Origin: Geosiphon pyriformis
Lineage: Eukaryota > Glomeromycota > Glomeromycetes > Archaeosporales > Geosiphonaceae
Length of the DNA: 58,910 bases
Direction of reading: 5' to 3'
Assembly: GCA_016748015.1 (NCBI GenBank)
Contig: JAAOMT010000566.1
Coordinates: forward strand, 1,025-59,934
In this document: positions 1 through 58,823 of the stretch, in pieces
How positions within the stretch are numbered: the first letter of the stretch is position 1
How the letters are laid out: every line of letters begins with the position of its first letter
Program-made: the position numbers and the translations under genes
The notes under the pieces: generated by a model
Databases searched by the model: none
What the model was told of the DNA's origin: nothing
What the model saw: the letters and a program-made list of their open reading frames with translations, nothing else

Positions 1-190
1 ACCCCTATCCCTAACCCTAACCCTAACCCTAACCCTAACCCTAACCCTAACCCTATCCCTAACCCTAACCCTAACCCTAACCCTAACCCTAACCCTAACC
101 CTAACCCTAACCCTAACCCTAACCCTAACCCTAACCCTATCCCTATCCCTATCCCTATCCCTATCCCTATCCCTATCCCTATCCCTAACT
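1..190. repeat. Telomere repeat array (CCCTAA)n
   Basis: Tandem CCCTAA units run from the first base, with scattered CCCTAT variants that take over from about 138. The C-rich strand reads 5' to 3' into the window, as expected for the left end of a chromosome; the G-strand unit is TTAGGG, the common fungal telomere repeat. The window therefore begins at or very near a real chromosome end. Confidence 0.97.
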
Positions 191-1003
191 TTAACCCTAT
201 AAATATCCCAATAAATATCCCTATCCCTATTTCTATCCTTATCTCTATTTCTATTCCTATCCCTATTCTTATCCCTATTTCTATCTCTATTCCTATCCCT
301 ATTCCTATCCCTATTCCTATTTTTATTCCTATCCCTATCCCTATCCCTATCCCTATCTCTATTCCTATTCCTATCCCTATCCCTATTCCTATCTCTATTC
401 CTATCCCTATTTCTATCCCTATTCCTATCCCTATTTCTATCCCTATTCCTATTTTTATTCCTATCCTTATCCCTATCCCTATCTCTATTCCTATTCCTAT
501 CTCTATCCCTATCTTTATCTCTATTCCTATCCCTATTCCTATCCCTATTCCTATTTTTATTCCTAATCCTAACCCTATTCTATTCCTATCCCTATCCCTA
601 TCTCTATTTTTATTCTTATATTAATCTCTATTTTTATTTTTTTTCTTATTTTTATCTTTATACATATTTTTATCTCTATTCCTATATCTATATCTATCTA
701 TATCTTTATCTTTATCTTTATCTTTATCTTTATTCTTATCTCTATTTTTATCTCTATCTCTATCTCTATCTTTATCTTTATCTTTATTTTTATCTTCATT
801 CTTATTTTTATCTTTATCTTTATCTTTATCTTTATCTTTATTCTTATTTTTATCTCTATCTTTATCTTTATTCTTATCCCTATTTTTATTTTAACTTTAT
901 CTTTATTTCTATTTTTATTTCTATTCTTATTTTTATTTTTATTTTTATCTTTATTTCTATATTTATTCTTAATTTTATCTCTATTTTTATTGTTATTTCT
1001 ATT
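191..1003. repeat. Degenerate telomere-like hexamer tract
   Basis: The 6-base rhythm of the telomere continues but the unit drifts from CCCTAT through TTCTAT, TCCTAT and CTCTAT to CTTTAT and TTTTAT. The change is mostly C to T and grows with distance from the end. It dissolves into ordinary AT-rich DNA around 1000. I see no gene here. It looks like old telomere sequence eroding by transition, not a separate satellite. Confidence 0.85.
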
Positions 1004-18444: not shown

Positions 18445-18527
18445 GTTATGGTCATTATCAGTTAAGTTAAAAGCAAAAAAAGGGTTTTCTTCTGGTTGGC
18501 TTGCACTTTCACTCTTTGGAGGTGCGC

Positions 18528-20093: not shown

Positions 20094-20145
20094 ACAATGA
20101 GAAAATAAGTGAATTTTGACAACCTCACAGAGAGCACTACTTTTA

Positions 20146-20894
20146 TGTTATGGGTTGGAGTAACAAGCTAACGGATAACAAAAAAGAACAGAATTGTAGG
20201 GTGATGGAAATAATCAAAGGGGAATTCAACTTTAAAGAGCAAATTGAATGAGTATGGATTCAATGTGCAAGATTAGTCTCATAAAATATCTCAGTTGCTA
20301 TTCTTTTCAAAGATAACTGGGGAATCTGAAGGTAGAGGGATAGTCCATACTGTCAAAAATTGATCACCACTGGTATAATTCTATGTCTTATGTCAGCACT
20401 CTTAGAATTCAATATCAGATATCAACTTGTGCTTTTCAGTCATGTTTATTCAATTAATCTTTAAATGCTACAATTATATACGTCAAGAAAAGGCCAACAA
20501 GTAATTTTTTATTTTTAAGATATTCAGATACTTGAAGGTAGGGAAAGGGAAATTAGCGATAAGTGAAGGATTGAGATGAAAGTTGTTATTTTATTTATTC
20601 TTGATTATTCAGATGCTTGTTATTACATGCTTTTCTACAACTAAGAGATTCATCACTTATATAGCTGTCAAAAGTGGTCAATAATTAGATTAATAATCAG
20701 GTCAAAGATCAGGTCAATAATCAGGTCATTGATCAGGTCATTGATCAGGTCAATGATCAAGTCAATGGTCAGGTCAACAGTCAGGTCATTGATTAGGTCA
20801 ATGATTACTTTCTAAAAATTGTGTGGCTAATCATATGACATTAGTGGCTAATACATGTGATAATTAATAAGAAGTATAGATTTCAACCATAACA
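20146..20894 (-). repeat. 5' LTR of the gypsy element
   Basis: 749-bp LTR with TGTTA...TAACA ends, upstream of gag in coding orientation. The 12-bp GGTCAnnnATCA array here (about 20678-20807) has about two more units than in the 3' LTR. The target-site copy GCAT follows at 20895-20898. Confidence 0.93.
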
Positions 20895-23690: not shown

Positions 23691-23826
23691 TTTTTTTTGT
23701 TTTTTTTTATTTTACAAGTGAGGTCCAAACACAACCTAACATTATACATCGAGGAATCGATCTAAACTAGGCATGAATCATGCACTATCTACACGTGACC
23801 AGTCACTTGAGCCAATCAGAACAACA

Positions 23827-26800
23827 CTATGCAGCTATATGAACTGACACCAAATCACTTATATCCAAAAAGAACAAGCAAGACTTATGAAAACCAAAAT
23901 GAACACCCAAAGCATTAGCAATACCAAGTAACCTAACTACTCCTGCAGAGAACCTCGAAGCTAAACCATGAACCAAGATACTGGCCCAACTATCTAGCAG
24001 AATCAGTTCATTCTTCTCTATATATGCATGATGCTTAGCACAGACCGACTAGACTTCCTCCCTGAAAGCAAGACCAAGAGAGTACACAAACTTGACAATC
24101 TCCAAAACAGCAATTTTGGGGTCGTAAAAGATGAAAACAGCTTCACAAAACCAACCATTGAAAACAAAGCCCTTAAAAAGAGCCATGGACATAGAAGAAT
24201 CAAAAACACCGGATGATAACAGCTGCAATATACTCGAGGAAGAATGAGAGGAACCAGAAATTGCCTTTCAAGACCCTACATGAGACTCCAACAACTGATG
24301 TCTAACAGACCCATCAACCTTGCAAGAAAACCCATGATCCGACATCTTCACTTCACCACAATACAAGCACAACATGCTAGGATAACATCTATCATAGAGG
24401 TGCTTTCGAACAGCAACTGGCAGCCAATGGTGTAAAGACTTTATAAAGTAAGTACGCATACTGGACGTAGACCTGCTGATGAAACCTGCCACTATGTGCA
24501 AATCAGGATGCCATACCAATGATAAGTGGGGCCAATCAACTTCAGAAGACAAGCCGCCCACCAAAACCCCAGAACCAAAACCAACCTCCTACTGTGCACG
24601 ATGAATAGAACGATAAATATCATATACAAAATGCCTCGAATTTCCAGAAACAATGCCACCATCAGCTGATAAAAAATGCTCACTCAAGCGAGGGGGAAGA
24701 TACCAATTAAAGAGAGAAGTGGCACCAGCAATTGCATCAGCATGCTTATTTCCTGAAACACCAGAATGGCTCTTTACCTTGTGAAAGCTAACCCTCAACT
24801 TCTTACTGCGAATTACGTTGACAATATGATAATGTTCGACCCAACACTGATTACAATAATTGGGATACACCAGACCCAACTCTGACCTGCAAGCATCCAA
24901 AGCCGATTGACTATCTGAGAACAAACAAACAGAGCTTAATAAGGGAATACACTCCATAGTCAAGGCAATGGTCTGTAATTCTGCCAAAGTAGATGACATC
25001 AAACCTGACACACTAATGCCCAAACCCAAACCAATGTCCTCAAAAAAAACAGCAGCACCAGTTCTACAGCCAACTGTGCCTAGATTACTAAGAGACCCAT
25101 CCATATATACTGACAGGCTGCTAGCACCAGTTGCCAAAAGATGATCACAAACAGATACAAAATCACCAGACTCAAGAATGTTTGAAGGCCCACTATCACT
25201 CAAAACTAAAGACTGAGCATGAGAAGATTTCACACTATTGAGAAATAAAACAGAAAGCTTGAACCACTCAGGAACTGGGCCACGGGAGTCCAATCTCTTC
25301 TACCTCTTGAAAGTATACCAACTAAAAACAGTACCATGATGGTCACAAAATTGATCCACAAAGGCAATACCATACTGCCAAAGGGAAGGGAAAAACCTGA
25401 GAAACCTTAACTCACCCAGAACCTCAGACATAGGCACTCCACCATGAGATTGAAAGGAACTAATTAAAGAACCACTCAGAGACACACTGCAATCAAAAAG
25501 AACACGAATCATTCTTGCCAAAAAGTTATTAGATGTACTGACACGAATATAAACAGGAAAACTCAACGAATGAACAGGATGCCAACACAGAACTTGCAAA
25601 TCATGAGACCTGTGGGAAAACAAACGACCCAAAATACCACCAGAGTTTGCAAAACTGATAAGAGAAGCAATCTTGCTCTTAGATTGAACTTGAAAAAATG
25701 ACTTTAAATTATAAAATGAAGGGTAATAAATTGCATCATTAGGGAAATCAAGTGACAAACCAGACTTAAGCTTCAAGCCTTTATGAATTAGAGCATCCCA
25801 CTTGTTGTACACATCAACAAGAATAAAACTGAACTGAGTTCTATAGCTGACTATTGGAAACAGAACTGTCAACACCAAATACAAGAACTGCTTATCTGAG
25901 ACTACCTTCCTCAACACCAGATTGGTGAAAAAGCGAATGTCTGAATGCGCCTTAATCAGGCTAGGCTTCGAAAGACCCTTAGTCGATATGAAAATGCCCA
26001 AATATCGGTGAGATTCTCCCCTTTTGGCAATAGAAATGGGCGAACTGCTAATAGAAAGAGAGGGATTGCTAACCCTGCTATTGATGGGAATGGATATCGT
26101 TTTGTCATTATTAATAGAGATGTCATTGACATGAAAAAATTCACTAGCAACATTAAGAATATGTTAAATAGCCATCTAACTGCTGCCAACCCAAATCATA
26201 TTATCAACAAAAGCACCAGTGGCGAAAAAAGAAGAAAATCCAGCCTGGAATTCGGAATGACCATTCTTGGAAACAAAGTGAAAATTCAATCTATATTCAC
26301 ATACACTCTCCTGTCTTTTGACTTCGCACAAAAGAGGATCATAAAATATGCGCCAGAGAAGAGAAGAAAAGACCTCTCCCTGGTCCAAACCATTGTGCAC
26401 ACAATAACCACTAGTCAATTCAAAATCAGTTATGACTTGGTTGGTATGATCCCCATAAATACCACTAAAAAACCGAATAAATTTACTACACATCTTAACC
26501 CTGACCAAACTCTTTTCGAGATGCTCCCAGCCAACCAAGTCATACACCTTTCGCATGTTCTGTAGAACCAGCCAGAGCTCTCTGTTTTTTTCTAAAGCAT
26601 CCTCAACCACCAAACCAACTGCAAAAACAGGAAACTAGGTTGATGTGCCCTTAAGAACCAAAAAATTCTCCCCTCAAAGCACGTCAAAAGTACTGCATAC
26701 CAAAGAAATTCTGTCAGAGAGGATCTTGAAGAGAATTTTGCAAGCTGTTTTGATTAAGGCAATAGGACGTGTGTTCGTCAAAACACCTTCCTACTCATAA

Positions 26801-28516
26801 GGTTTGGGAATCATTGAGACCCATGCTTCTTTCTAAGGGCTGGACACCAATTCACTAGACAAACAAGAGTTCAAGAGCACCAACAACAAATCTAAAACTG
26901 ACCTATTACAATGTTTCCAAAGCTTATTTGAAATACCTGACAAACCAGCTGCTTTACCATCCGGAAGATCAGAAACCACCCCCAAGGAATTCATCATACT
27001 CAATTGAACACATGACACCAGAAAAAGCTCTATCAAAAACATACTCTAGCAGCCGATATTGGAGGTGCCAATCATCTGAGACATCATCAACCACTCGACG
27101 CTTTCTAGTTCAACCTTCCATGATTTCATCTACCTTTGATTTGACAGATTCAGGCTCCAAAACCAACTCATCTCCCACAACCAGATGATCTAAGACCACC
27201 TTACAAAAGAGATGCTCCAAAACACTCCTAATAGTGTGACCTTTGTCTAGTTCAAAACTCTCCATCCTCTTATCAATAGCCTGCTTGATCAAAGATTCTT
27301 CAGCTCGTCTGGACTCCAACAACTTAGAAGCACGGTACAACTTTCTTGCTTTGGCCAGTGCAGAATGAATGTGATTAAAACCAGAACCTGAAAGGAACAG
27401 GGACTTTACCTCTGACGCACCAGAAGAATCAAGCTTATCCCAAGTCTCCAACAAAGAAGCAAAATCCCCACCAGAAACCAAGTGAGAATCCCTAACCAGC
27501 TTAGACACCAGCAGCTCCAGATAATGTAACCTGAACGAAACCTTATTAAAAACACTATCATAACTCTTGAACCACTTTTTCTTGAATGTCCCACCAGTAG
27601 AAAGCACCACAACTTTACGAACAATGTCCCACATAACATCCAGATAAGAAAACTGTTTAGCCACAACAAACTCATCCAAGAACATAACAGCATTTGCAGC
27701 TGTAGCATTCCTGATTTCCGACCACTTAATCTCACTGGTATTTTTAACATCATACTTCCAACGATCCCTATTGGCTTGCTTGTGCATTGAGTTCAGCTGA
27801 ACATCGAGCAGGCCACCCAGTCTTACAGAAACATAAACAGCCTTGTGATCGGTATCAAAATATTCCTCAACACCATCCACACCACAATCCACCACTGCAC
27901 CAACCAAATTAGAAGAAACAAACACATAGTCAATAGTCTTAGTAATACCACAAAAATTGCACCAAGTAGGTGATTTCACAAAAGAGCTCCCCCCCAGAGA
28001 GTTAACCAAACCCAAATCAGAACATTTCTTGAAACTGGCACATCTGTGTGAATCATCCTCATTAAAATCACCACCAAGAATAACAAAGGAGGACTCATTA
28101 ACGGCTTTAGCAATGAGAGAGTTGATCTCACCAGCCTGAGAAAACCAAGTTACTACTGACACACCAACATAGATCCCCAAAATAGACACTGAGAGTTTAT
28201 TTCTGAACAACAATTTGATAGATAGGAGCTGACCAAACACTTCAGAAATCTTGTAGACATGCTTTGCTAAAGAAAAATTCATAACGATTAACACCCCAGC
28301 ACCCGAAGAACCAAAATTCAGACCAGAAGTAAAAACCCGAACACTATCAAATTTGTTGACCAACCACGGATGAACATTCCCTTTAAGCTTTGACTCAGTG
28401 AAAATAGAAACTAAATTGCCCATATTCTTATGCCAACGAATAACATCATCTTGCTTCGCAGGATTGTTCAACCCACGAACATTACACATAGCAATTTTCT
28501 ACACCAGACCACTCAT
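23827..28516 (-). pseudogene. LINE B ORF2: endonuclease, RT, RNase H
   Basis: About 1,560 codons. The ATG at 28514-28516 overlaps the ORF1 stop. A TAG soon after (where Trp is expected) interrupts the start. Endonuclease: FTESKLKGN, FVILGGDFNEDD, TIDYVFVSS and DTDHKAVYV (27110-28489). A frame change near 27050-27110 follows. Reverse transcriptase: LPDGKAAGLSGI, MRKVYDLVGWEHLEKS, and AFVDNMIW, where the second catalytic Asp of FVDD is Asn (26176-26613). RNase H: VYMDGSLSNLG, LFSDSQSALDA and FHKVKSHSGVSGNKHAD (24589-25293). A later region has CLYCGEVKMSDHGFSC, a possible zinc-binding site. The protein ends at TAG 23827-23829. It is not functional. Confidence 0.9.
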
Positions 28517-30312
28517 TGAGAAAGAGGTAGAGGAAGAGCACTACCTGCCAAAGCCAAACCATCTAGGCGCGCCGATAGGCTCATGACTGAAGCAGAGAGA
28601 CCTTCCAACATGTTTTCCAATTTCACAACCTCAGGTGAGGCAGTCGAACCTGTAACAGCAGCAGTCTTGTCACTAGTAGCATCATCCGAACTCACTCTCA
28701 TCACTATATCCTCCCCTTGATTCTGTGATGAAGGGGTCACTGGCAGCTGACATCCAGGACTAGGCTGGGAAACTGCCAGCATGAATAAGTTCAACCTCTT
28801 AGCCAACTTACCAATTTGTCCCGCGAGGCTGACAAGACTGCTTTCAATATTTTTCAAATGGTCTTCCAATTTACCACTAACAATCGGGAGAGGTTTACCA
28901 TAAGATACAGAACCAGATTGAGCTAAACCACTAAATGATGCTAATGGAAGTGGTTTACCAACCACGGAGGCCCAGATTTTTCCACCAAAAGCCAAAGGGC
29001 GGGAAATGGGAGCAGATTTTTTTTCATATATCTTAGCCAGATGGAGCTGATCCTGAGCTGAGAGAGGAGCTCTCTTGCTCCTAGGACTTGAGGACACACC
29101 AGCACTACAACAAGTGAGAGAAGTATGACCGGAATTTCTGCAAATTGAGCACAGTGCAGTGGTCAAATGAGACCAACAGAGACCAACACCTTTTATAACA
29201 GGAGTGTTTGCCATTGCCTGAACAAGACTACCCTCAGAATTGAAGCACACAGTGGCACAGTATGCCCGGACATAACTGACAGAGCTGCATTCAATAACAC
29301 ATGTTTTCCTATCAACCAAACCAATGAAGTTCCAAAGATCATGAGTGGTGGTATCCATAGGAAGAGTGTAAAGCAAAGCCCTGAACTCATCTCTGGCATC
29401 CCACATTTGTTTGTCAATATCGGCCCGGGCCACACACACTGCATCTTTCCCAATAAGGACAGACTACTTAGCCGCCAAGAGATCAGCCTGAATTTGATTT
29501 TCCAATTTGATAATTGCCTTTTGCCATAGATCCACCAACTGCATTTTAATCGACTTAATAAGTCCAAATTCAGAAATGGCTGCACACACTGTCTCAATGG
29601 AAGTTCCCACAGGGATTTTTTTCAACACAATTGCCCGATTCATACGATTGTTGATGGGGCACTTAAGATTGGTGTTTACCACAACACCACGATCATTTGC
29701 CAATTGAGCAGCCACTATCATCGCCTTTTCAGAAGTAAAAGACACCTGGATGATTCCACCAAATTTTGAGGGAGCAGAGACTCCCCCAAAACCATTTACA
29801 TCTGAGAAAATTTTTCTGACAAAGTTCAATTTCTCCTGAGATGATTTTCCAGCAACAGCCATGAGATCAATATCTAAAACAAAGAACTTGCGAACAGGCA
29901 CTTGAACAGATGGTTTGATAGGCAAAGGGGGTGGAAGAAGGAAGGAATCATCTAACACGTCATTGTCTACATCAACAGTACCATAATCAATTACACCCAG
30001 AGGCTTCCCTAATACTTTTTTGGTCTTTACACACAAATTCTTAGGCGTTTAATCAGGATTCCCTCCTGTGAAAGCACCATTCTCACCATAGTCAACACTG
30101 GTTTCCTCAACCAAGCACTCCTTTTCCATGTCAATACTCTCAGATTCAGTAGTGTCACCCACCTCAGAATCCCATGAACAATTACCAAGAGCTTTATAAA
30201 CAACCTTACTATTATTCACACTCTCTGCCAATACACCACTCTTTCTCTTCTTCCTCGATACAACCGTCTTAAAACCACTCTCAGAACCAGAAACTTTGGT
30301 AGTCTTCTTCAT
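28513..30312 (-). pseudogene. LINE B ORF1 (gag-like, two nonsense codons)
   Basis: A single frame of 600 codons from ATG 30310-30312 to TGA 28513-28515, broken by only two stops: TAA at 30049-30051 and a TAG near 29463. Both fit single C to T or G to A changes. The middle part resembles an RNA-recognition fold region. A CCHC knuckle, CSICRNSGHTSLTC, lies near residues 390-405, followed by a Ser-rich and low-complexity C-terminus. ORF1 proteins bind element RNA. LINE A ORF1 is homologous but more broken. Confidence 0.88.
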
Positions 30313-30590: not shown

Positions 30591-32007
30591 TATTTATACT
30601 TTAAAAACTATTTATATTGTTAAACTTATGATAAAATGATTAATTTTGTGCCAATTATTTTTTGTAATTATTTTGTATTAAAAGTTAACTTTTTTGTAGA
30701 AATTTTTCTATAGTATTTTTTTAACTATAAAATCTCAATAATTTATAATAAATTAAAAAAAAATAGAAAAAAAAAATATGATTTTAATAATAATTAGAAA
30801 TAATTTATTGCATAAATTCTACTTAGATTTAAATAAGAAATTAATTAAACTATTAAAATTTGTAGTTAGTTAATTTTAAAGTATTAATTTTAAATATTTT
30901 AAAATTTTAAAATATTTAAGAATTTTTGGAGGGTTTTTAAAAAAATATTTTTATTTTTTTTGTTTGATTTGTAATTTATTATCTAATTTTAAAATTATAA
31001 AATGTTAAGATATATTTTTTTAAAAAGAAAAGCTATTTTTTTATATATTTTTGAGTAATATTTATTCAAGTTTTAACACTTTTTTCTTTGTAATTATTTT
31101 TTTGAATTTTTTAAAACTAATTATAAATTTCAGTAAACTCTTTATATTTTAGTAAATAATTGTAAAATTCGTGAATTTTTGCATATTTCGACCAATTTTT
31201 ACTGTTATAAAGTTCGAATTTAGTTATATTGTATACTTGTATAATTTGAATTATTAATTGAAATATAAATGATCAATAATTTCATAAAATAATAATAAAA
31301 TAATTAATAATAAAATATAATTTAATTAATATATAATAATAAATAATAATAAGAATTATAAAAGTAATATTATGCTAATTTTTATTTACTTTTAGTAACA
31401 ATGTGTTGCAAATAGATTGATTTAACAATTTTTTATATTAATTAATATTTTTATTTAATATAAAAACTTAAAATATTTTATATAATTTAATAAAATCTTT
31501 TTTAAACAACTTATTTTTAAAAAATACAAAATTTTTTTATATGTAATAAAATTATTATAATTATTTTTATATAAATAATTTTATATATTAATTTTATTAT
31601 TTTTAAATTTTTTATAATTTTTTATTTAAGTTTAAATTTTATTTATTAATTAAAAATTAACTTAATTATAATAAATAACAAATATATATTTTATTTATAA
31701 TATATATTTAACTAAGACTTAAAATTTTGTTTGTTATTTTTAAAATTAATTTTATTAGACAATTTTAAATAAAAATTTAAATTTTATGTTTTAAAAATAA
31801 TATTAATAAATATTAACACAATACACTAAAATAAATAAAACTTAATATTTTAACTTTCACAAATATATATGTAACAATAAAATATTATTTACTTTTTTCT
31901 AAACAAATTTTTAATTACATATAATATTAATGTAAATTTGTTTAAATAAGCAGTTATTATTTCTATTATAAAACAAATATCCATAATTTATATATAAACA
32001 AAAAAAA
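30591..32007. other. AT-rich desert
   Basis: No gene seen. Composition resembles the 1-9 kb desert. It ends at the assembly gap. Confidence 0.6.
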
Positions 32008-32140
32008 NNNNNNNNNNNNNNNNNNNNNNNNNNNNNNNNNNNNNNNNNNNNNNNNNNNNNNNNNNNNNNNNNNNNNNNNNNNNNNNNNNNNNNNNNNNNN
32101 NNNNNNNNNNNNNNNNNNNNNNNNNNNNNNNNNNNNNNNN
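32008..32140. other. Assembly gap (133 N)
   Basis: A run of unknown bases directly beside the 3' end of the nuclease-kinase gene. It hides the C-terminus of that protein. The sequence left of the gap is desert, so the missing coding part is either inside the gap or lost. Confidence 0.99.
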
Positions 32141-34155
32141 TTTACTTATAAAGTCCTTTCCATCATCAGAAGACACCGTATTAAGCCGTTCTAATAACTT
32201 GCCTAATTGATACATGTCCGAAAGAGTTGTGTAGGTATTATTCTCATCACACGTGCCATCATCCCAGTCTGTCAATAAGCTGTCGAATTTTTCGTTTATT
32301 TTACCTCCATGCTCGAAATCAATAAGAACATATTCGTAGCCTTGAGAATTATTCGAATCGTAAATAATATTCGATGAACGAATGTCGCGATGGACGAAAT
32401 CTTTTTCATGAAGTGTCTTCAGTCCAGTTAGCAAACTGCGCGTCATCACTCGTGTTGTTTCCTCGTTTTCCGGTGAGCGTTCAAGGCCACGTGTCTTCAG
32501 TTTAACTGTATATCTCCCTGGACCTTTCCGATCGGCTTTAAAGGATGGTGCTTTGAAGATCTGAACGAGTCCGTGATGACCTTTGGCAAGCTCGTACATG
32601 TCCTTTAATGTATCAACACGTTTGCAGTCCTTCTCTAAGCCATAGAGTTCACTCTCCGGAACAACTTTCTTAACATGGTCTTCAAAGAAAGTAATTGTAG
32701 AATGTCCGAGGTCCAGTGACTTACCGAGAGGGATTACTTTAGCAGGGAAGGCATTCTTTGTGATCATGGTTTTAAGGATACGAACAATATTGATGCATAT
32801 CTTGACAGATGTGTATCGAGCTTTGAGATCATACAGGTAAAGTTCTGTGGACAGTGGAACCAAAGTCTTGCTGGGACCATCAATTGCATAAAAGCACATA
32901 ATGTCCTTTGCTACAGCAAAACAAATTAAAAATTGAATATTCCCGAAATATAATGGATCGAGCTTGCTAAACTTGGATATGAGCTCTTCTTTGGCAGTTT
33001 CAAGATCGATTCGTGCAGCCTTCTCTTCATTTTTTATCACTACTACATCTTTAACATATCCAAGAAGGTCAGGTCTAGTATTTTTTATTGTCGCTGGATT
33101 GCTTTTTGATTTCGTTGTATATCTCCTTAGAAAACAAAGTGTAAAATTAATGTTAGACATGGAAACAAAAACTAATAAACACCAAGAACAGCATACAAAA
33201 TGAAAACATACCTCTCATTCGCGTTACGGAAAAATTCGATTTGAAAATCAGAGTTACTGCAAAGTAATTCCAGAGGAAATGTGGTTAATCTATCCACGGC
33301 CCCAGCCAGCTGTATTTCGGTTTTAATTTGGGTAAACCTCGTCTCAGAGAGGGCAGCCTTGATCACAATTGCTAATTCACTCGCCCTATCTATTTCATCA
33401 TAATAGATACAGTCATCAAGTTCTCGAAACTGGCATTTGTCAAAATAAGATAATATTGTCAATTATGAATAGATTAAGAACAGCTAATATGAAAATCAAG
33501 GTCATACTTTTCCTAAGTCCGAGTATAAACACACGGGAAGCTTTGCAAGAAGAGGCGTATTAATGAGGTCCACCAGCTGGTCAGCATGAGTTGGCATAAT
33601 ATCAAATGGCTGAATGAGGTTTTCACATAGAAACTTAGTCTTGTCGCGCTCTATTGTTAAAATTGTTAAAACTGGGGAGACTATCAACATTAACGTATAA
33701 ATCTGTGTTAAAATGTACAATACCGCTGCGTGGTCTTTTTGGAGGACGCTCGAGTTCTGCAAGTGAAACAACATTCAAGAACGTTGAAGTTGAGAGTGCA
33801 ACACTCATGAGTCAGTCATTACCCAGTCATAAACTCTGTCCCCAACCTTCAAGTCACAAGTCACAAAGTCGTTACCTATCTTAGTTATTTCCATCAAAGA
33901 ATTTTGTAGTTTTTGCACCTGCAACTCCCATTTATCTCTACTCGTTTTTAGCTCTTTCTTCACTCCTTCTAGCATCTCTAATGCTCGCTTCTCCGTTTCA
34001 GTGAGCTCTTCTTCTTCTACATACAACTTGTCCTCCAACACCTTCAGTTTCTGCCCACGTTTCCCCTCTTCAAAATTCTTCAATGCAGCCTTTGCTTCAT
34101 TCAGCTGCTCCTTCGCATCTTTCAACTCGTTCTCAATTTTTTCGACAGTCGCCAT
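32141..34155 (-). CDS. Coiled-coil, REase-like and kinase-like protein (Crinkler-type), 3' end missing
   Basis: Four exons on the minus strand: 33823-34155, 33508-33756, 33212-33429 and 33125 down to the gap; all junctions are GT-AG and keep frame. ATG at 34153-34155. Exon 1 is a charged coiled coil (ENELKDAKEQLNEAKAAL). Exons 3-4 contain NTRPDLL and then VVVIKNEEKAA, fitting a PD-(D/E)xK nuclease fold. A kinase-like domain follows, with DHVKKVV (possible beta-3 Lys), FVHRDIRSSNIIY (HRD and Asn) and VLIDFEHG, where DFG reads DFE. Nuclease-kinase fusions of this type are known in Crinkler/CR effectors, which act in host nuclei; that role here is inferred. No LFLAK-type header or signal peptide is seen. 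The gene is much richer in G and C than its surroundings. Confidence 0.75.
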
Positions 34156-46583: not shown

Positions 46584-48175
46584 CTAATTATTATTATTAT
46601 TATTATTATTTTCATAAATTTTCTGAGCTAAAAAATTTCTGAATTTACTCATTGATTCGCAATTGTTCATTTCAATCCCAAAATAAGGCCCATTATGAAA
46701 TAATTTGTTCGGAACTTCGTTTATTGATTGACCAGCATTACACTCCTAAAGTAAAAAAAAAGAAAAAAAGAAAAAAAAAAAACTTATTTTTTTCAATGCC
46801 TTTGCTAAAAATTTCTTAATTCAATATAAATTATTACTAACCACATTCTCTTCAGGATACTGCGAATTAAACCATTCTTCACTTTGACTTGACATCAAAG
46901 GAAAAGAATTACAATCCCAATACGTATTTGAGTCATCAGGACAATTACAATTACTCAATGGTTCAATCCAAATTTCAGTACCAAAATGTCTCCACCCCAT
47001 TGAAGACGAAGGAGAGTGTGGCACATGATCATTTCCATGGGTGAAGCGACGATGAAGAATTAATTGGTTGAAACTATCCCTAAAGTGCTCGTTTCCAACT
47101 CTCGGAGCCCCAAAAGTATAAATACTCTGCCCTATACCGCTTAAATTAATATCCGGCCAAATATTCATATTTAAAATTTTATATCTTTCAAGTAACCACC
47201 TCACTGCAGCAATGCAAGCATATGCTTATATATATATATATAATAGTTAAAAAAAGATTTAATGTTAAAAAAATAATTTTATAATTTTTACTTCAAACTT
47301 TAAAATAAAAGACATTTAAGAAACTAACCTCCACAAATACCATGTCCCGTAAATACAATATTAAGGTTTTGAGTTAGCTTTGTAAATTTCATTAAAAATA
47401 ATTTAATACTTTGAAGTAAATTAGGAAATAATAAATCCAAATCTTTCAATAATTGTGAGTCTGCACGAAATTTTTCGTCAAACTTTGGAATATTTTTAAA
47501 ATGAAGTGGCACTTGTTTTGAATTTCTAGAAGCCCATTCTTCTTTCGTTAATTTCTAATATAAATAAAGAAACATTGTTATTTCGAAATTTTAATTGATT
47601 TAAAATATTAAAGGAGTTAAAGATAATTACTGATCCTCCAAACGCTATTATTAAAAGGCCATCAGTTTCTGAATCTAAGTAAAACTGAACCGCCACTAAT
47701 AAATAGTATTTTGAAAGCTATTAGTTTTTGTTTTTTTTAAAAAAAAATTTAAATTTCAAAATAATTTCTTTTTCTGAATTTAAAAACCTTTAATTTGTAA
47801 ACCAGGCACTCTTGAGCCAACGTTATTTAGACCGAGACAGTCAAATGCATTTACTATGAATGCAATATACGAGGAAATTTTTAGCTCACTATTATCAAAT
47901 AAAATTCGGCTCTTAGGTTGTGATTGTGAGCGTTTTTTGGTTTTATTAATTTTTTGTGAGATATTGATTTGATTTATCCAATTAATCATTGTAGGAGAGG
48001 TGTAATTTATATCTGCTTTTTTAAACTTTTGAATTACTTTAGAGGCTATCCAGATACTGCTGTGGTTTTCATGAATCAAAAAATAAAAAATTAATGCTAT
48101 AAAAATTGCAGTAATAATCTTAAATTTTCTTGAAAAATCGACCTTGAATCGTATTTGATTATTAAAAGAACCCAT
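46584..48175 (-). CDS. Pseudo-lipase 1: class 3 lipase fold, Ser to Gly
   Basis: Five exons (47788-48175, 47631-47695, 47329-47554, 46842-47224, 46584-46745), GT-AG throughout, giving 407 residues from ATG 48173-48175. A membrane segment near the start (ITAIFIALIFYFLI) suggests a signal anchor. The lipase domain starts with LLIIAFGGS, where FRGT is usual. The elbow reads TGHGICGAYA instead of GHSLGGAYA, so the nucleophilic Ser is Gly. TFGAPRVGN, FTHGNDHVPH (Asp) and WRHFGTEIWIEP (His) are kept. The tail has CNCPDD, ECNAG, GPYFG and eight Asn from an ATT microsatellite. The frame is intact, so it is likely a functional non-enzyme or altered enzyme. Divergent to the next gene. Confidence 0.88.
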
Positions 48176-49150
48176 TTTATTGATTTTCAAGATGGATATA
48201 ATAGAGTTTTTATGGAATTTTTTTTCAAGATGCACCAATTATTAAAAAAAGATCTATAGATCGAGCTTAATTGTTTGTTTAAAACATCTCATTTAAACAA
48301 AATAAAGTAATAAATAATATAATTTTAATATCTATCACACTATATCTTGTATCCCCAAAGAAGTTTTCAAATTTTTACAAATTTATAAACAAAATTATTT
48401 AATTTTATTTTAATTTGAAAATAAGATTTTATTTCAGGTTTATTTAATAAATACATTAAATGAGATATTTAATTGAAATATTAATTAATGAGAAAAAGTA
48501 TTTCACTTCATTGATCTTTTAGAAAAAATATTTTTAAATAATTGCTATAGTTTTTGGTTTTAGACTTTAATCATCTAAAGTGAAACATTTCAATATTTTA
48601 TGTAGAAAAAGTTTTAAAATTCTAACTTGACTTCGACTTTATTTATTAAATAAAAGAAATCGAAAGCTTTACGGAAGAATAATCAGAATTACAGCGCTCC
48701 AAGATTCCCCGATGGTTTCATTGTGTATCATTGTAAATGAATACAGTAGAAAAAATATTAAAAATTTAATTTCAATAAGAAGTTAAATCATTATATAAAA
48801 CCAACTATTTGGAAATGAGAACTTTTCATATTTAATAATTATTAAAATCCGGCAAGCTTTAAAACTTAAATTTGGAAAAAAATCTATATATTACTTTTAA
48901 ATTGATCTGAAAAACCTCTTTTTTTTTAATCATTCTGGAAAATGAATATTTGATTTAGCTTTTAATAATTTCAAAAAGTTGAAAGTTTTTTGTCAACAAA
49001 TAAATCTAATGATCTCGACTATTATAAATAATAATAATAATAATAATAATAATGAAATTTAAATTTGATATTAAAAATAAAAAAATTTAAAAAAATATAT
49101 TTTAAATTAAATAATAATAATAATAATAATTTAATGGTATAATTCTTTTA

Positions 49151-49182
<32 letters not shown>

Positions 49183-49816
49183 CTTGTGTACAAAATAAGT
49201 TTAAAAAATATTGTGTATTTTATGTTAAAAAATGAAAAATGAAAAAAAGATATTATATAAAACAAAAAGTAAAAATATTATAATTTTATGTTTGAATATA
49301 AATTTTATTTATTATTTTATTATTTTATTATTTTATTATTCCTTTAAATTCTTGAATAAAATTGATAAACTTGTACAAAGATTACTTTTATCAATATATA
49401 TATTTTAATTTATATAATATAATTATTTCAAAAAAATTTACTTTGTAAAAAAAAGTTTTGTCGGTCATAAATTTTGTTTTGAATCTACCTGTGTTTATGT
49501 TCTTGTCTTTTTGATAAAACTTTTTAAACTTTATTTATAAATAGATAGTTATAAATAGTTTCTATCAGCCTATCCTATTTTCCAAAAACGATTTTCTTTC
49601 ATCATTAATTTTTTACCGCTAAAAAGATCAATAAATAATTCTAACCAATCTCATCAAAACGATATATCAAACCCCCAATTTTTCAGTGTAACATGTTAAC
49701 TTGGGAATCTGTATTTTTTTTAAAATTTTAATAAACTTTACCCCTTTATATTAATATAAACATATATTCATTATATCTACACGCGATGACTAAACTCTTA
49801 ACCCAAGTTTAATAAT

Positions 49817-49852
<36 letters not shown>

Positions 49853-49855
49853 AAC

Positions 49856-49895
<40 letters not shown>

Positions 49896-49911
49896 GTTGC
49901 TTAATTACATT
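48176..49911. promoter_or_regulatory. Divergent intergenic region between pseudo-lipases 1 and 2
   Basis: About 1.7 kb between two genes transcribed away from each other. It holds several AAT microsatellites (about 49026-49055, 49107-49132, 49150-49178), an AAC run followed by an AAT run (about 49813-49893) in the probable leader of pseudo-lipase 2, and a TTTTATTA-type run near 49310-49340. No other gene is visible. Promoter positions are not certain. Confidence 0.5.
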
Positions 49912-51424
49912 ATGAGTTCATCAATCAAAAATCACCACACATGCTCAATGAAGAGTTCTTCTTTTATATTCCTTTTCAATCTGCTTGCAATACTTGTGCT
50001 TTCTCAAGATAGTTTGAGAAATTTAAATTTAACCAATCTGGACGGAAATTCTAGGTATTTTTTTTAAAAAAAAGGTGATATAAAACTGTTTTCGAGACTT
50101 ATGAAAAAAAAAAAATAATAATTTCATCAATTTCCATAATAGACTTCTTTCTGATAAAAAAGAATCTATCACCGTTAAGAATAAGACGAAGCCGAACGCG
50201 AGCGACGACGACGACGAAAGGTCTGAAGACCAAGAATTTCTAGAAAAAACCTACCACCAAAAAATTGAACAGTCTAGAGCAAAAAATCAAATCATTTTTC
50301 AGTCAAATCAAAAAAGAAATTCCATAATTCAACCTATCTCAAAAATTAGGAAAGATATATCCATCCTGAAATATCTAACATATGCGAGACACAACAAAAG
50401 GCTCTATTGTTCACCAAAACGAGTAGTTAAATTTATAGAAAATTTGGATCTCACAGGTTTTTTTTTTCACCATATAAATTTTTTTTTTCAGTTCCTAAAA
50501 CTTTATTATCACTAAAATTAAATGAATAATTTGGCTCTTCTTTAGGGAGAGTACATAAAACATTTAATAATCTTATATTTTCCCTGAGAGCTCCTGAAAT
50601 ACGTTACTTAAGTACGTGGTCTAAGGAACGAGAAAATATACTTGTACCTTATTTGGAAGTTAAGGACGCAAGAGTGGATAAAAAATTTTACCAGGATTTT
50701 CAAATAGTCTCTCAGGAAATTCAGTCATACCTTTTAAAAATCATGAAAACTGGCAACCAGAGATATTTTATTTTAACTGGACATCGATTAGCGGGCGGTC
50801 TGATGATTTATTTATTTATTTATTTCTTGAAATATTTGAGAATTAATGATTAAGATACTTCAAGTTTTTGTTCTTTCTTTTTTTCAAAAATACAGTTTAT
50901 GCGATATTTACGGCACTAATGATGAAAAATATACCCTCTTCAATTAAAACATTTAATGTCTTCACTTGGGGATCTCCGCGGTTTGGGAATGCCGCATTTG
51001 CAAATCATGTCAATTCTGTTTTAAATGTCCGTCGAGTAACTTTGATGGATGACCAAATCACAAGGTTCCCAATTTATACCAGCACATCAGATTTAACTTC
51101 GTATCTACATCCTGGGGAAGAAATATGGATAAAGAAAAAATGTGATTGTGATAATTTCGAATATTTTAATTGTCCGGGGGTGAAGGAGAAAGATGAGTTG
51201 AAAGAAAGTCCGGTATGCTATATATTTATAAGAGATTTATAAAAATTTTGGCTTTTTTTGTTGTTGTTAAACCTTGATTAAAAAAATTAAAAATTTATAA
51301 ATATTTTTGATTTTTACAGTTTTGTAATAATTCTCAACCAGAGCATGACCCAGATTTTACATATGATGGTCCCTATTTTGGTTTTATATTTGGTCATCAA
51401 TACCAAATTTGTGAAGAAGTCTAA
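49912..51424 (+). CDS. Pseudo-lipase 2: class 3 lipase fold, Ser to Arg
   Basis: Five exons (49912-50054, 50143-50456, 50546-50797, 50896-51212, 51320-51424), all GT-AG and in frame, giving 376 residues. The N-terminus is a good signal peptide (SSSFIFLFNLLAILVLS). An acidic, Lys-rich linker (NASDDDDERSEDQE) precedes the lipase domain. Where the oxyanion motif is expected it reads IFSLRAPE. The elbow reads TGHRLAGVYA: Ser replaced by Arg. TWGSPRFGN, TLMDDQITRFP (Asp) and YLHPGEEIWIKK (His) are present. The tail has CDCDNFEYFNCPG, then FCNNS and YDGPYFG. The intron after the elbow has an unusual GTCTGA donor. Probably secreted; substrate or partner unknown. Confidence 0.87.
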
Positions 51425-51718
51425 TATATATATATATATATGTATATATTAGATACCTAAATTTTAAATTCACTATTTGAAAATATAAATATTTATTAAA
51501 ACAACTGTCTTTTACTTAAGAAATCAGATATTCTAAAAAAATATGCATGAAAAAATTTTCTGATTAATTATCATCTCTAGTATTTTTCTGTCTTGTTATT
51601 GAATTATATAAATTTAATGCAAAAAAAAAATTTCAAAATTTTAATTTATCTTTTATTACATTATTCAAAGCATATTTCTTTTTAATAAACTAAAAATTAA
51701 GAATTCTCAAAACTTGTT
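51425..51718. other. Convergent spacer between pseudo-lipases 2 and 3
   Basis: 294 bp separating two genes that end towards each other. It begins with a (TA)n run just after the stop of pseudo-lipase 2. No separate terminator or gene is recognised. Confidence 0.6.
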
Positions 51719-52656
51719 CTAATTTAGATATCTTTTTTTGAAACAATTTTTAAACATTGTTCGCCCAAAATATGGACCAAAATGCTCATGATCAAGATGG
51801 GATTCTCTATAAATTTTGATTGAATCTTGAAAATTTATTCCTGGATATATGGCTTTATGCAAATGATTTCTTGCATTGCAATCCTAAACAAAGTTTTGAA
51901 ATTTTTTTAATTTTAAAATTATTAAATAGGAAATGAATTATAAATTTATCGATTTTTAAAATTACCTCATGTTCATGTAATGTATGCGTATGATAACATA
52001 TATAAATCTTTGAATTTGGACAATCACATGAAGGAGGTTCTATCCAAAACTCTTTTTGAGAATGTCTGTATTGAATTTTGGTTAATTTTGTTGTTGTTGT
52101 TGTTGTTGTTGTTATTTCTTTAGGCATATTTATTCCACGAAAAAATCCTTCAATTGGAAAATTAGGTATCCAATCATCACCATAAGTCACCCTCCAAACT
52201 TTATGTAACATATGTTGAACGTAATGAACGAATATTTCATTTCCAATTCTTGGCTGGCCGAAAGTAATCACGCTTACGGTGGCTTCCGTATTATTTCTTT
52301 TATATTCAAGTGCAGCAAATACAGCTAAAGCTAAAAAAATTTAAAAGAGGTTAACAGTGAAAATTTTTAAATTTTTATTGTAAAAAAAAATTCGCAAATT
52401 CTTTTTTACCGGCTCCAGTACCAAAGCCTGTAAATAAATATTCATTCAAATTATTTTCCCTTTCATACTTTTCAAATTTCGTCGAGAAAAGTTCTCCCCG
52501 AGATTGCCAAAATTTATAAAGAAATCTGGAGACTAACCCATATTGTACAGGTGGGTAAGGAATAAAATCCCATACTAATCCGCCTATACCAAATTTTAAA
52601 TAATCAATGTTATCTTCGACAGCACTAAAAGCGATTATACTGCTTGAAAACTTCAC

Positions 52657-52698
<42 letters not shown>

Positions 52699-53235
52699 AA
52701 TAAATGAAAAAGTTTAGCTTCAAGTAATTTTTTCGAAAAAACAAGAATAATTTTTTTACTAACCCCAAGCCCTAGCAGCTGAACGACGATTCGCGAAAAA
52801 ATCATTTGTCGCTTTTTTGATAACTTGTTGGCAAGTTGCCTCCCAGGCAAATTTTGCACTTTCTGATAGTTGACGCAAAACATTTTCATCTTCAACAACC
52901 ATTTTTACCATGGCAAAATTTGTATCATAATCTCCATCACCATCACCACCACCATCACCATCACCACCATCACCATTATCACCATCAATATCACCACCTT
53001 CAATATCTGCTATTGTAGCCACTGTATTATTAAGAGTGAATTGGAAATTTCTTTTTTGATTTGATTGAATTATAAAATAATTTTGTTTGATGTGAGATTT
53101 ATTATTATGGAATGACTGTGAACGAAAAATGATCTCCGTAATAGATGGACTTTTATTATGAAAATAAAAAAGAAAAATTAGAGGCAACAAGGAAAAGAAT
53201 GCGTGCGGCCAAATAATTTTCACAATATAAAACAT
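51719..53235 (-). CDS. Pseudo-lipase 3: class 3 lipase fold, His-Ser to Phe-Gly
   Basis: Four exons (52764-53235, 52410-52655, 51966-52330, 51719-51883), GT-AG, giving 415 residues from ATG 53233-53235; upstream in-frame codons contain no ATG. The start MFYIVKIIWPHAFFSLLPLI is a signal anchor. A Gly/Asp repeat tract (GDGGDGDGGGDGDGD) encoded by a microsatellite lies in the linker. Lipase-domain landmarks: SSIIAFSAVE at the oxyanion position; TGFGTGAALA at the elbow (GHSLGGALA in active enzymes), so both His and Ser are changed; TFGQPRIGN; TYGDDWIPNFP (Asp); YRHSQKEFWIEP (His). A run of eight Thr precedes the His segment. Tail: CDCPN, HEHE-DCNAR, HFGPYFG and a final Cys. Confidence 0.88.
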
Positions 53236-53706
53236 TCTAATTTTTGAAAAAGTTCCGCGTAGTTTGAGTTGCTTCAAGTAAAAAATATCTTGACCATAAT
53301 TTAGCTCAAGAGATTTGATTTTAAAATTTTTTTTTTCCTAATTAGGATATTCTTATCAAGATTTTTTTATAAGGCTGCGGAAAAAATTTTTGAATTTTTT
53401 CTCAAAATAAATATTTACATAATTTCTAAATACATGGAAAATCTCGGTCTTTGAAATTCTTCCGATTAATAAATAAATATATAAATATTTTTCTGAAATA
53501 CATTGAGTTATCGCATCATGATCGTCCTAAATAAAAAATTAGCGTTATTTTCCGCATGATAAAGAATTTTAAAAAAGTGTTTACTTCAAAAATTTAGAAT
53601 ATATAAACACTGACATCAGTGTAAACAATTCAAATTCCTCCCCTCCCCTCCCCTCCCCTCCCTCCACTTTTAACTTGAAAATTTTTTAAAAGGTGAAGAA
53701 AGAAGA
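53236..53706. promoter_or_regulatory. Divergent promoter region with TATA box, palindrome and C-rich tract
   Basis: 471 bp between pseudo-lipases 3 and 4, transcribed away from each other. Upstream of gene 4 are TATATAAA at 53600-53607, the inverted repeat ACACTG-ACAT-CAGTGT at 53607-53622, and a CCCCT tandem run at 53637-53665. The opposite strand of that run has several runs of three or more G and could form a G-quadruplex. The TATA box is about 107 bp before the ATG. The roles are inferred from position. Confidence 0.55.
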
Positions 53707-53831
53707 ATGATTTCTCAGAGAAAACACCTAATGACTAAGGAATTCTACGCGAGGCTTAAAAAACTTTCTCTCAAAAGATTTATTTCTATTATTCTTTTTT
53801 TTCTTCTTTTATTCTTTTTATCCCATCTAAG

Positions 53832-53867
<36 letters not shown>

Positions 53868-55292
53868 GTTAGATCAAAATCTTTTTGATTATCCCCTAGA
53901 AAATATAAAAAAATTTGATTTCTTTCATCACTCTGAGCCAATTTTAAAACTCAAAAAAAATTTAACAAAAGATATTGCAAAATTCGAAATTTCACTTTTC
54001 CAAGAAAGAAATTCTTTTGGCCCCATTTTTATAAAAGATTTAGTCGATGATCAGAATCTTTTGGAATTATTTTCTACCAAAGCAAATTTTGCCAGGATAT
54101 CACATTGTTCCCTAAAACAGTTACTACTATCAGGAAAAGGTGAGAATCGGACTTCTTGCGTTGAAATATAGATTATAATATTTTAATTCATTTGTAAATT
54201 TTTTCAAAACAGTTTTCTCTGATGCTTTGGTTTCCATTATGGAACACGATCATTCAAAATTGACTCTAAGTTTTGCACATATTAATAACAATAATTTTGA
54301 AAACACGCGATCCCGCATATCGCAGATTTTTAGAGTCGTTCAATTCCCAGATGTAACTGGTGCTTGGGTAGCAGGCATATACCTCCGCTTATGGAAAATT
54401 TATTTTCAGAAAAAATTTTTGGGGGGGCTTCAAAAATTTTTGTCAAATTCACTGAAGAAATATGATTATTCTGATTTTTATTTCACTGGATTTGGCCAAA
54501 GTTGTCGTAAGTTTTGAGTTTATTCATTAAAAGAATAAATTAAAATTACTTTGGACTTTCGAATTTAATGTTTTTTGAATTAGCATATGCAATTTTTGCT
54601 GCCCTGAAATTTTTGGAAATCTATAAACCTTCAAAAAAACCTATCGTTGTTACTTTTGGCCAACCGAGAATGGGAAATGAAGTTTTTACCGCTTTTGCTC
54701 AAACCAAACTTGAGGCAAGAAATTTTCCATTTGATTTTTGTTCCCAATTTGTTTCTGAAGATTTTGCTAATAATGTCTTTAATTGAAATCGAAAAACAAG
54801 ATTTTTCGTGTTACACTTATGGATGATTGGTTACCAGATATCCCCATACAAGGAAGAAGATATTTTTCAAAATGGGATGATACAAACAAAAGGCCAACGA
54901 GTTTAGTGCTTCCTGTAAAAGAAAGATATACACATTTCAAACCTGAATTTTGGATTGAAATTAATTGTGAATGTTCACAAGACATCTACCCAACTGTGTA
55001 CAAATGCTTGAACACCCATTCATTCGATGAACATCCGGTATGAATTTGATATTTAAATGTTAATAGAAAATCTCTAAAATATTTTTGCCCAAATTCCATT
55101 TTTTCTCAACCTCTTTAGGAATGCAATGCTCGTAAACATGAGATCAACATTTCACATGGCTTTCTGCATGAAAATAAATCCGATGAATTTCATTTTGGTC
55201 CGTATTTTGGACAAAACATGAATGATTGTCAAAATTTAAATAGAACTATGATTAAAGGTATAATCTTACAAAAAAAAGTACCAACCTTTTAG
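53707..55292 (+). CDS. Pseudo-lipase 4: class 3 lipase fold, Ser to Gly, with a GC-AG intron
   Basis: Five exons (53707-54139, 54213-54506, 54584-54714, 54801-55037, 55119-55292), giving 422 residues. The third intron (54715-54800) uses a GC donor, GAG|GCAAGA, with a CTAAT branch-like site and an AAG acceptor. This choice makes the segment between the TFGQPRMGN and RVTLMDDW motifs the same length as in gene 2; otherwise the frame stops at 54783. A long hydrophobic N-terminal segment includes 13 Leu encoded by a TTA/ATT microsatellite, probably a signal anchor. The elbow reads TGFGQSCPYA, with the nucleophile position Gly. MDDWLPDIP (Asp) and YTHFKPEFWIEI (His) are kept. Tail: CECSQD, ECNAR, HFGPYFG, Cys. 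Confidence 0.85.
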
Positions 55293-57726: not shown

Positions 57727-58823
57727 CTAATAGAGATTACTATTATCGTTAAAGCCTCCGTTAATAGTACCAGAGGAAAAGTGACCATTTTGCTGGTTAC
57801 CAATGGATCTCTTATCGTTGAAACCTCCATTAATTGTCCCAGACGAAAACTGACCGTTTTGTTGATTACCGATGGATCTTTTATCATTGAAACCTCCGTT
57901 AATTGTACCAGACGAAAAGTCACCATTTTGTTGGTTACCTATGGATCTCTTATCGTTGAAACCTCCATTAATTGTCCCAGACGAAAACTGACCATTTTGT
58001 TGATTACCGATGGATCTCTTAGTGTTGAAACCTCCATTAATTGTCCCAGACGAAAACTGACCGTTTTGTTGATTACCGATGGATCTTTTATCATTGAAAC
58101 CTCCGTTAATAGTACCAGACGAAAACTGACCATTTTGTTGATTACCGATGGATCTTTTATCATTGAAACCTCCGTTAATTGTACCAGACGAAAAGTCACC
58201 ATTTTGTTGGTTACCTATGGATCTCTTATCGTTGAAACCTCCATTAATTGTCCCAGACGAAAACTGACCATTTTGTTGATTACCGATGGATCTCTTAGTG
58301 TTGAAACCTCCATTAATTGTCCCAGACGAAAACTGACCGTTTTGTTGATTACCGATGGATCTTTTATGTTGAAACCTCCATTAATTGTCCCAGACGAAAA
58401 GTCACCATTTTGTTGGTTACCTATGGATCTCTTATCGTTGAAACCTCCATTAATTGTACCAGACGAAAACTGACCATTTTGCTGGTTACCAATGGATCTC
58501 TTATTGTTGAAACCTCCATTAATTGTCCCAGACGAAAAGTCACCATTTTGCTGGTTTCCAATGGATCTTTTATCATTGAAACCTCCATTAATAGTACCAG
58601 ACGAAAAATCACCATTTTGCTGGTTACCAATTGCATTGGAATTATATCCTAATCTATCACCATTATGGTTGAAGCCTCCGTTAATAGTACCATGGGAAAA
58701 CTGGCCGTTGTTCTGATTACCGATACCCCTCTTTGCATTTAATGCAGCTGCACTAGACGTTGAAAATGTAGACAAGAGAAAAATAGCTGTGCAAATTTGT
58801 GTAATAAAAATTTTACCAGTCAT
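57727..58823 (-). CDS. Secreted Lys-Arg-punctuated repeat precursor (KEP-like), one-base frameshift
   Basis: ATG at 58821-58823 (an upstream in-frame TTG is not the start). A signal peptide (KIFITQICTAIFLLSTFSTS) is followed by AAALNAKR and then fourteen copies of a 23-residue unit of the form KR-SIGNQQNG-x-FSSGTINGGFN-x, where x is D, Q, H, N or T. The first two units are variants. The protein ends NDNSNLY at TAG 57727-57729. Lys-Arg before each unit is a Kex2 site, so the predicted products are near-identical 21-residue peptides rich in Asn, Gly, Gln and Ser, without Cys. Kex2-processed repeat proteins are known in fungi as sources of pheromones, surface peptides and cyclic RiPPs. One base is missing in the unit at 58363-58430, shifting the frame; otherwise about 365 residues would be encoded. 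Activity of the product is unknown. Confidence 0.85.
57730..58720. repeat. 69-bp coding minisatellite (14 units)
   Basis: Tandem 69-bp units, nearly all the same length, make up the repeat precursor. Units at 57880-58086 and 58156-58362 are identical over 207 bp, showing a recent four-unit (276-bp) duplication. The unit at 58363-58430 is 68 bp. Confidence 0.93.

Follow-up and report, generated by a model that had tools for sequence, protein, structure and literature searches.

A large family of class 3 lipase-fold proteins without the nucleophile serine in Geosiphon pyriformis

A 58,910-nucleotide stretch of the Geosiphon pyriformis genome (assembly GCA_016748015.1, contig JAAOMT010000566.1, positions 1,025 to 59,934 of the forward strand; hereafter the window) carries four neighbouring genes, g1 to g4, whose products belong to the class 3 lipases and lack the serine that serves as nucleophile at the catalytic elbow. 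In our search of the whole Geosiphon genome, 360 of 402 elbows of a strict form were without Ser; Ser is thus missing from most members, and g1 to g4 are not isolated dying copies. For Geosiphon, a member of the Glomeromycotina, this bears out in part an earlier sequence-only reading of the window, which had proposed an expanded pseudo-lipase family. By sequence, g1 to g4 belong to a family with several hundred elbow exons whose relatives are the secreted class 3 lipases of fungi. Its nucleophilic Ser is replaced, mostly by Gly, and its oxyanion Thr is lost; the other two members of the catalytic triad, Asp and His, are nearly invariant, and the motifs of the fold and a gained set of cysteines are retained.

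Four window genes and the genome-wide elbow survey

Gene models for g1 to g4 were assembled one exon at a time, with splice sites picked by hand from the DNA alone. The models contain no internal stops and no frameshifts, and consist of five exons (g1, g2, and g4) or four (g3); intron lengths range from 73 to 108 bases, and a single intron is GC-AG. Positions are those of the window:

46584..48175, minus strand: g1, Lipase_3 protein without Ser, 407 amino acids; exons 48175-47788, 47695-47631, 47554-47329, 47224-46842, 46745-46584 (spliced model, Pfam, paralogues on contig C96)
47330..47347, minus strand: g1 elbow GHGICG, closing exon 3; Gly as nucleophile residue, codon GGT at 47341-47339
49912..51424, plus strand: g2, Lipase_3 protein without Ser, 376 amino acids; exons 49912-50054, 50143-50456, 50546-50797, 50896-51212, 51320-51424 (spliced model, Pfam, public annotation)
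50779..50796, plus strand: g2 elbow GHRLAG; Arg as nucleophile residue, in common with locus L043
51719..53235, minus strand: g3, Lipase_3 protein without Ser, 415 amino acids; exons 53235-52764, 52655-52410, 52330-51966, 51883-51719 (spliced model, Pfam)
52411..52428, minus strand: g3 elbow GFGTGA; Gly as nucleophile residue
53707..55292, plus strand: g4, Lipase_3 protein without Ser, 422 amino acids; exons 53707-54139, 54213-54506, 54584-54714, 54801-55037, 55119-55292; third intron GC-AG (spliced model, Pfam)
54488..54505, plus strand: g4 elbow GFGQSC; Gly as nucleophile residue

Lipase_3 is the sole Pfam domain in g1 to g4, present once per protein and above the curated cut-off in each (E = 1.3e-13, 1.7e-14, 1.4e-18, and 5.3e-11, respectively). 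The nucleophile position is occupied by Gly in g1, g3, and g4 and by Arg in g2, and the oxyanion strands read AFGGS (g1), SLRAP (g2), AFSAV (g3), and SFAHI (g4), such that the Thr/Ser of the FRGT motif is also gone. The elbows, oxyanion strands, and intact frames are therefore as the sequence-only reading had quoted them. What it had not seen, in describing a catalytic loss, is that the catalytic Asp is retained in all four proteins and the catalytic His in g1, g3, and g4, with Tyr in its place in g2.

We reject faulty splicing or sequencing as the source of the missing Ser, given the four intact frames, the GT-AG or GC-AG introns, and the public annotation of g2 (P0001, G9A89_004838, 333 amino acids), whose elbow is identical to that of the rebuilt gene. 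When all window open reading frames (ORFs) of at least 30 amino acids were searched with a family profile, the 12 matching ORFs were all exons of g1 to g4; another exon that would place Ser at the elbow did not turn up, in a search of limited sensitivity that misses the elbow exon of g4 itself.

Because counts by Lipase_3 score favour Ser, the genome was surveyed with an elbow pattern that leaves the nucleophile unconstrained, namely Gly-His-x-x-Gly-Gly followed by an exon-end G|GT, with the reversed pattern as a control. The pattern was found 402 times and the control 7 times. Gly is the nucleophile residue in 287 elbows (control 1), whereas Ser is found in 42 (37 with AGY and 5 with TCN codons; controls 0), Ala in 41 (control 0), Asp or Glu in 13 (10 Asp and 3 Glu; control 0), and Cys in 3 (control 2); Val and Thr do not occur, and other residues account for the remaining 16 by subtraction. 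All four Gly codons are represented among the first 100 elbows listed. The 402 count as elbow exons, which need not each be a gene, and roughly 7 of them could be chance matches; on the other hand, the elbows of g1 to g4 all lie outside the strict GHxxGG form, and the number accordingly misses members of the family. The Asp or Cys elbows are possible alternative nucleophiles, and one Cys elbow, GHCVGG, is found in a full gene core (L009) that keeps both Asp and His.

The choice of residue at the elbow is itself informative. A single transversion turns any Gly codon into one for Ala or for Val, yet Ala was found at 41 elbows and Val at none, which points away from drift and towards selection that favours a small side chain. 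The copies compared share descent; even so, the tree described below requires at least six changes to or from Ala among its nine Ala rows, and it has no Val rows. This contrast between Ala and Val is the best sign we have that points to constraint at the elbow.

Conserved residues, descent, and selection

For a closer comparison, 150 of 748 candidates were scored and 40 regions fetched, and the scoring itself delivered eight loci, six of them the same as fetched ones; this sample favours the highest Lipase_3 scores and hence Ser-like members. Spliced profile alignment produced 48 cores, of which 44 came from fetched loci and four from the window (L012 and L026 had no core above the score limit of 40). 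L003 to L008, as duplicates of later loci, were dropped before counting, as were 26 fragments, near-copies, or non-fungal rows, and rows shorter than 120 amino acids, including the Ser-type L028p and L037m. The resulting alignment of 102 rows, comprising cores, listed proteins, and outgroups, has Gly at the nucleophile position in 65 rows, Ser in 24, Ala in nine, Arg in two, and Cys and Asn in one each.

In a quick tree of these rows, calculated with the elbow columns excluded, 79 rows form one clade (Shimodaira-Hasegawa-like approximate likelihood ratio test, SH-aLRT, 95) that contains g1 to g4 and includes 61 rows with Gly, 8 with Ala, 7 with Ser, and 3 with other residues. Smaller Ser-less lineages fall outside this clade, which may mean either that Ser was lost more than once or that the backbone is unresolved; of the 99 inner branches, 48 are open, and none has the outgroup as one side.

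Within the main clade (counted without the long branches P0064 and L030p), the 71 rows without Ser all retain the catalytic Asp, and 65 of 69 retain the catalytic His. The Glu of an E-x-W motif is likewise present in 71 of 71, and a Cys-x-Cys pair following the Asp in 70 of 71, with L042p as the exception. Conservation of Asp, His, and Cys stands out because mean column identity in the Gly-type alignment (17 sequences) is only 25%. By contrast, the oxyanion sequence RGT or RGS is found in one of the 71 Ser-less rows (57 have a letter there) versus 19 of 35 Ser rows, a denominator that is one too many because L036m, whose true elbow is GFGGSS, was misaligned. Cys-x-Cys, counted on ungapped sequences, is found in none of 15 canonical rows (one had a letter in the alignment columns) and in none of 111 readable proteins from the Ser-type search described below; it is also missing from the Ser-less lineages outside the clade (L024, L031, L034, L021m, and L047) and from P0064.

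The seven Ser rows inside the clade may represent Ser that was regained or Ser that was never lost. Six of them have the Cys-x-Cys pair, which is missing in L030p, a long branch; the same six have letters at the oxyanion column (L030p has none), and none reads RGT, P0020 being probably misaligned. All 11 Ser elbows for which the codon was read use AGY (9 AGT and 2 AGC), from which Gly is one codon step away, and for the five TCN-coded Ser elbows of the genome survey, Ala (GCN) would be a better starting point than AGY.

Ser-type lipase genes persist in the Geosiphon genome beside the Ser-less family, and among the matches listed in a Ser-type search (best 120 of 1971), the Glomeromycotina outside Geosiphon were represented by Glomus cerebriforme, at 44% identity, and by Funneliformis geosporum, at 40%, both with Ser. 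All 119 new proteins among those 120 matches have Ser, a result biased by query words that contain the Ser elbow. In the first protein search, 25 of 29 matches were proteins of Geosiphon pyriformis, including g2. Neither this search nor a further one, both of which require shared five-letter words, found a Ser-less relative in another named arbuscular mycorrhizal fungus. Because the database includes such fungi, the Ser-less expansion is suggested to be particular to Geosiphon. Two metagenome proteins (P0064 and P0065) and a more distant third (P0069) also have the lipase fold with an elbow GHGIGG and no Ser, and a Ser-to-Gly change may therefore exist elsewhere than in Geosiphon. P0064 and P0065 keep the Asp and a C-terminal His-x-x-Tyr-Phe-Gly and have no Cys-x-Cys (confirmed for P0064, by eye for P0065).

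When a profile including the Ser-type rows was compared with solved structures, filamentous fungal lipases were nearest (best chain E = 8.6e-47). The lipases of Thermomyces lanuginosus, Rhizomucor miehei, and Rhizopus (PF01764) share with the Geosiphon family the fold, the sequence family, and the positions of the elbow, Asp, and His; the Geosiphon family differs in the loss of Ser and the oxyanion Thr, the gain of Cys-x-Cys, and its several hundred copies. Lipases of this type are likely ancestors of the Ser-less family, since Ser-type genes persist in Geosiphon, Glomus cerebriforme, and Funneliformis geosporum.

Selection was assessed as pairwise ratios of nonsynonymous to synonymous substitution rates (dN/dS; Nei-Gojobori), the oldest pairs being near silent-site saturation. 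Older Ser-less pairs gave 0.18-0.49 (L016/L033 0.18, L024/L031 0.21, g2/L043 0.27, and g3/L041 0.49), and L039/L040 and L023/L038 gave 0.55 and 0.64; Ser-type pairs gave 0.13-0.34, with two undefined (among 30 pairs listed). The family is thus constrained at depth, and its young copies change fast, through either relaxation or diversification.

Candidate functions of the Ser-less proteins

It is very probable that the family of g1 to g4 consists of pseudo-enzymes that carry out no hydrolysis by the class 3 mechanism; from established enzymology, such hydrolysis is very unlikely once Ser and the oxyanion Thr are both lost. As to what these proteins might do instead, binding of acyl lipids or partner surfaces is the leading, if tentative, candidate. 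The S146A mutant of T. lanuginosus lipase, which shares the fold and had its elbow Ser removed by engineering, is reported as inactive, and its structure 1GT6 is listed with oleic acid as ligand (PMC8540959), which indicates that a Ser-less pocket in the lipase fold can still hold a fatty acid. The same entry was the top match of our Gly-type profile among solved structures (E = 5.8e-26), level with entries of the wild-type enzyme. S146A is a laboratory mutant with Ala and a presumably intact oxyanion residue, whereas the Geosiphon family mostly has Gly and has lost the oxyanion Thr too.

In the proposed mechanism, an N-terminal hydrophobic segment would direct the proteins into the secretory pathway, after which they would stay secreted or anchored, and the gained cysteines would form disulfides that stiffen the protein. 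The former active-site pocket, left open by small elbow residues, would bind acyl lipids or lipid-bearing surfaces but not cleave them, and the retained His and Asp may hold the ligand head group. The likeliest use of the proteins would then be lipid capture, presentation, or sensing where the fungal surface meets its cyanobacterial partner or the surroundings. Geosiphon keeps Nostoc inside its cells, and any symbiotic use of the family is a guess. A search for the Fas1-AflB domain of type I fatty acid synthase gave no candidates in the Geosiphon genome (no fungal positive control was run), and a ketoacyl-synthase search gave two exon matches only, about 0.9 kb apart on one contig. Geosiphon therefore seems to be without a type I fatty acid synthase, which would make lipid capture a plausible need.

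A number of observations weigh against lipid-binding pseudo-enzymes. The strict retention of His and Asp could equally mean another chemistry, and the Ser rows inside the clade (7 of 79), together with the 13 Asp or Glu elbows, suggest that some members may be active. The secretion or anchoring proposed by the sequence-only reading would fit the N-terminal hydrophobic segment that all four window models have; in the 62 proteins P0001-P0062 (58 from Geosiphon), such a stretch is present in only 13, one of which is the elbow itself, and many annotated starts in this set look truncated. A recognition or effector role would likewise suit the rapid change seen outside the core, and the dN/dS of 0.55-0.97 in young pairs is what relaxed constraint would give as well. 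In particular, the g1 group has a dN/dS of 0.65-0.97, not different from 1 (z 0.1-1.7); against its four paralogous loci, two of them identical, g1 itself gave 0.76-0.97, likewise not different from 1. The dN/dS values thus indicate constraint in the older pairs and, for g1, do not tell selection from neutrality.

We also entertain, as rather doubtful, a fuller history, in which several hundred surface proteins for lipid binding or recognition arose from a secreted lipase through an early Ser-to-Gly change, with Asp-His kept as a ligand clamp, and some members later regained Ser, partly via another codon, or took up Asp or Cys, giving a nucleophile series in one genome.

A role as secreted recognition or effector proteins, with the lipase fold as a stable scaffold whose diversified surface binds cyanobacterial or plant proteins or glycans or those of other fungi, is the main rival reading, possible but on the unlikely side. 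The hundreds of elbow exons in a single genome, the tandem clusters, one of them beside a telomere, the high dN/dS of young pairs, and the extra cysteines would all fit such a role. There is also a precedent in the RALPH pseudo-RNases of the powdery mildew Blumeria (CSEP0064/BEC1054), a large secreted enzyme-fold set in which the catalytic triad is gone and one member has been proposed to be a pseudoenzyme (PMC6464244). The Geosiphon family is RALPH-like in kind and not in descent, as a one-lineage expansion with a catalytic residue lost in most members; RALPH proteins have an RNase fold, lack the whole triad, and belong to a plant pathogen, whereas the Geosiphon family has lost only the Ser of the triad. 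On a pure scaffold, however, Asp and His should drift, and they are retained in 71 of 71 and 65 of 69 rows.

An enzyme of altered mechanism would account for that retention, as well as for the Cys-x-Cys pair. Here an Asp-His dyad would act without Ser, the nucleophile being water, the substrate, or a new residue (Cys-x-Cys, or Asp or Cys in a few members). Asp nucleophiles occur in other alpha/beta hydrolases, and the 10 Asp and 3 Cys elbows are in line with this, the latter to be set against a control count of 2, although one Cys elbow belongs to the full gene core of L009. We nevertheless consider such a mechanism improbable: the oxyanion Thr is lost along with Ser, the commonest elbow residue, Gly, offers no nucleophile, and the extra cysteines adjoin what we take, from the R. 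miehei structure, to be the region of the canonical disulfide, so that new disulfides would be the simpler reading.

That the genes are relaxed duplicates heading for loss, an amplified family decaying without function in a repeat-rich genome, would suit the near-neutral dN/dS of g1 and its relatives, the near-telomere setting, and the transposon-like ORFs of the window, but is very unlikely given the family-level conservation of Asp, His, and Cys at low overall identity, the intact multi-exon frames, the low dN/dS of older Ser-less pairs, the Ala to Val contrast, and, more weakly since the genes were chosen intact and the aligner avoids stops, the absence of nonsense changes where roughly 3 to 6 would be expected per young pair under neutrality.

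Non-enzymatic relatives of lipases are known from other organisms. EDS1, PAD4, and SAG101 have a non-enzymatic signalling role, carry a second (EP) domain, and are intracellular. The sequence-only reading had compared the window genes with EDS1 and PAD4; a relation through a Lipase_3-related domain holds, while closeness does not, as the profile that matched fungal lipases at 8.6e-47 matched EDS1/PAD4 at 5e-11 to 3e-9 and SAG101 at about 5e-6. With these values, and with Lipase_3 and no C-terminal EP domain among the Pfam matches of g1 to g4, an EDS1-like origin is ruled out. Neuroligins and insect yolk proteins, which are alpha/beta-hydrolase relatives, no longer have the Ser (neuroligin 1 has Gly in its place) and function through binding; they differ in belonging to other subfamilies, small families, and animals, and the type-B carboxylesterase domain typical of neuroligin-like proteins was likewise absent from the Pfam matches of g1 to g4.

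Pseudo-enzyme families and Ser-less hydrolase folds are thus already known, and what is new, to our knowledge, is a Geosiphon family of this size that retains Asp and His and has gained cysteines; among the papers listed in literature searches, none dealt with Ser-less lipases in Geosiphon or other Glomeromycotina, judged by titles and the beginnings of abstracts. Pseudo-enzymes are often single proteins or few in number. Here, the roughly 360 Ser-less elbow exons would make up about 1.5% of the approximately 24,000 genes that follow from a genome of 129 Mb with 1.893 genes per 10 kb (PMC9453076), provided that each exon stands for a gene. Geosiphon is placed in the same subphylum as the arbuscular mycorrhizal fungi. 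If the proteins bind lipids, they would be candidates for fungal uptake or sensing of partner lipids; if they are recognition proteins, they would amount to a sizeable effector-like repertoire. In both cases, the label "lipase" would be misleading, and lipase counts in such genomes would overstate enzymes.

Genomic setting and side observations

The window opens with a telomeric repeat array, and the cluster of g1 to g4 is for this reason regarded as subtelomeric:

3..607, no strand assigned: telomeric CCCTAA/CCCTAT array at the window start

The subtelomeric location described in the sequence-only reading thus applies to the window cluster and does not extend to a genome-wide rule: 22 of 44 family matches lie within 200 kb of a contig end, compared with 15.6 expected, and telomere association of the whole family is weak. 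Tandem clusters were seen among the family loci. Two g1-like cores, L049 and L050 (contig C96, 296900-298400 and 318880-320380), have identical coding sequences on opposite strands about 22 kb apart, and may be either a very recent duplication or an assembly copy. In two annotated Geosiphon proteins, P0036 and P0060, Lipase_3 is joined to a P450 or receptor domain; these are possibly merged neighbouring gene models.

Elsewhere in the window, ORFs resembling broken retrotransposons (by eye) occupy 10853-30048, mostly on the minus strand, with reverse transcriptase, RNase H, integrase, and gag zinc-finger pieces at 14930-19946 and endonuclease pieces like those of long interspersed nuclear elements (LINEs) at 21337-30048. 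At 31988-33214 on the minus strand, an open frame contains an H-R-D motif resembling that of kinases, with masked sequence after it, and a 69-base unit is repeated in tandem at 57743-58628 (12.9 copies, 89% matches).

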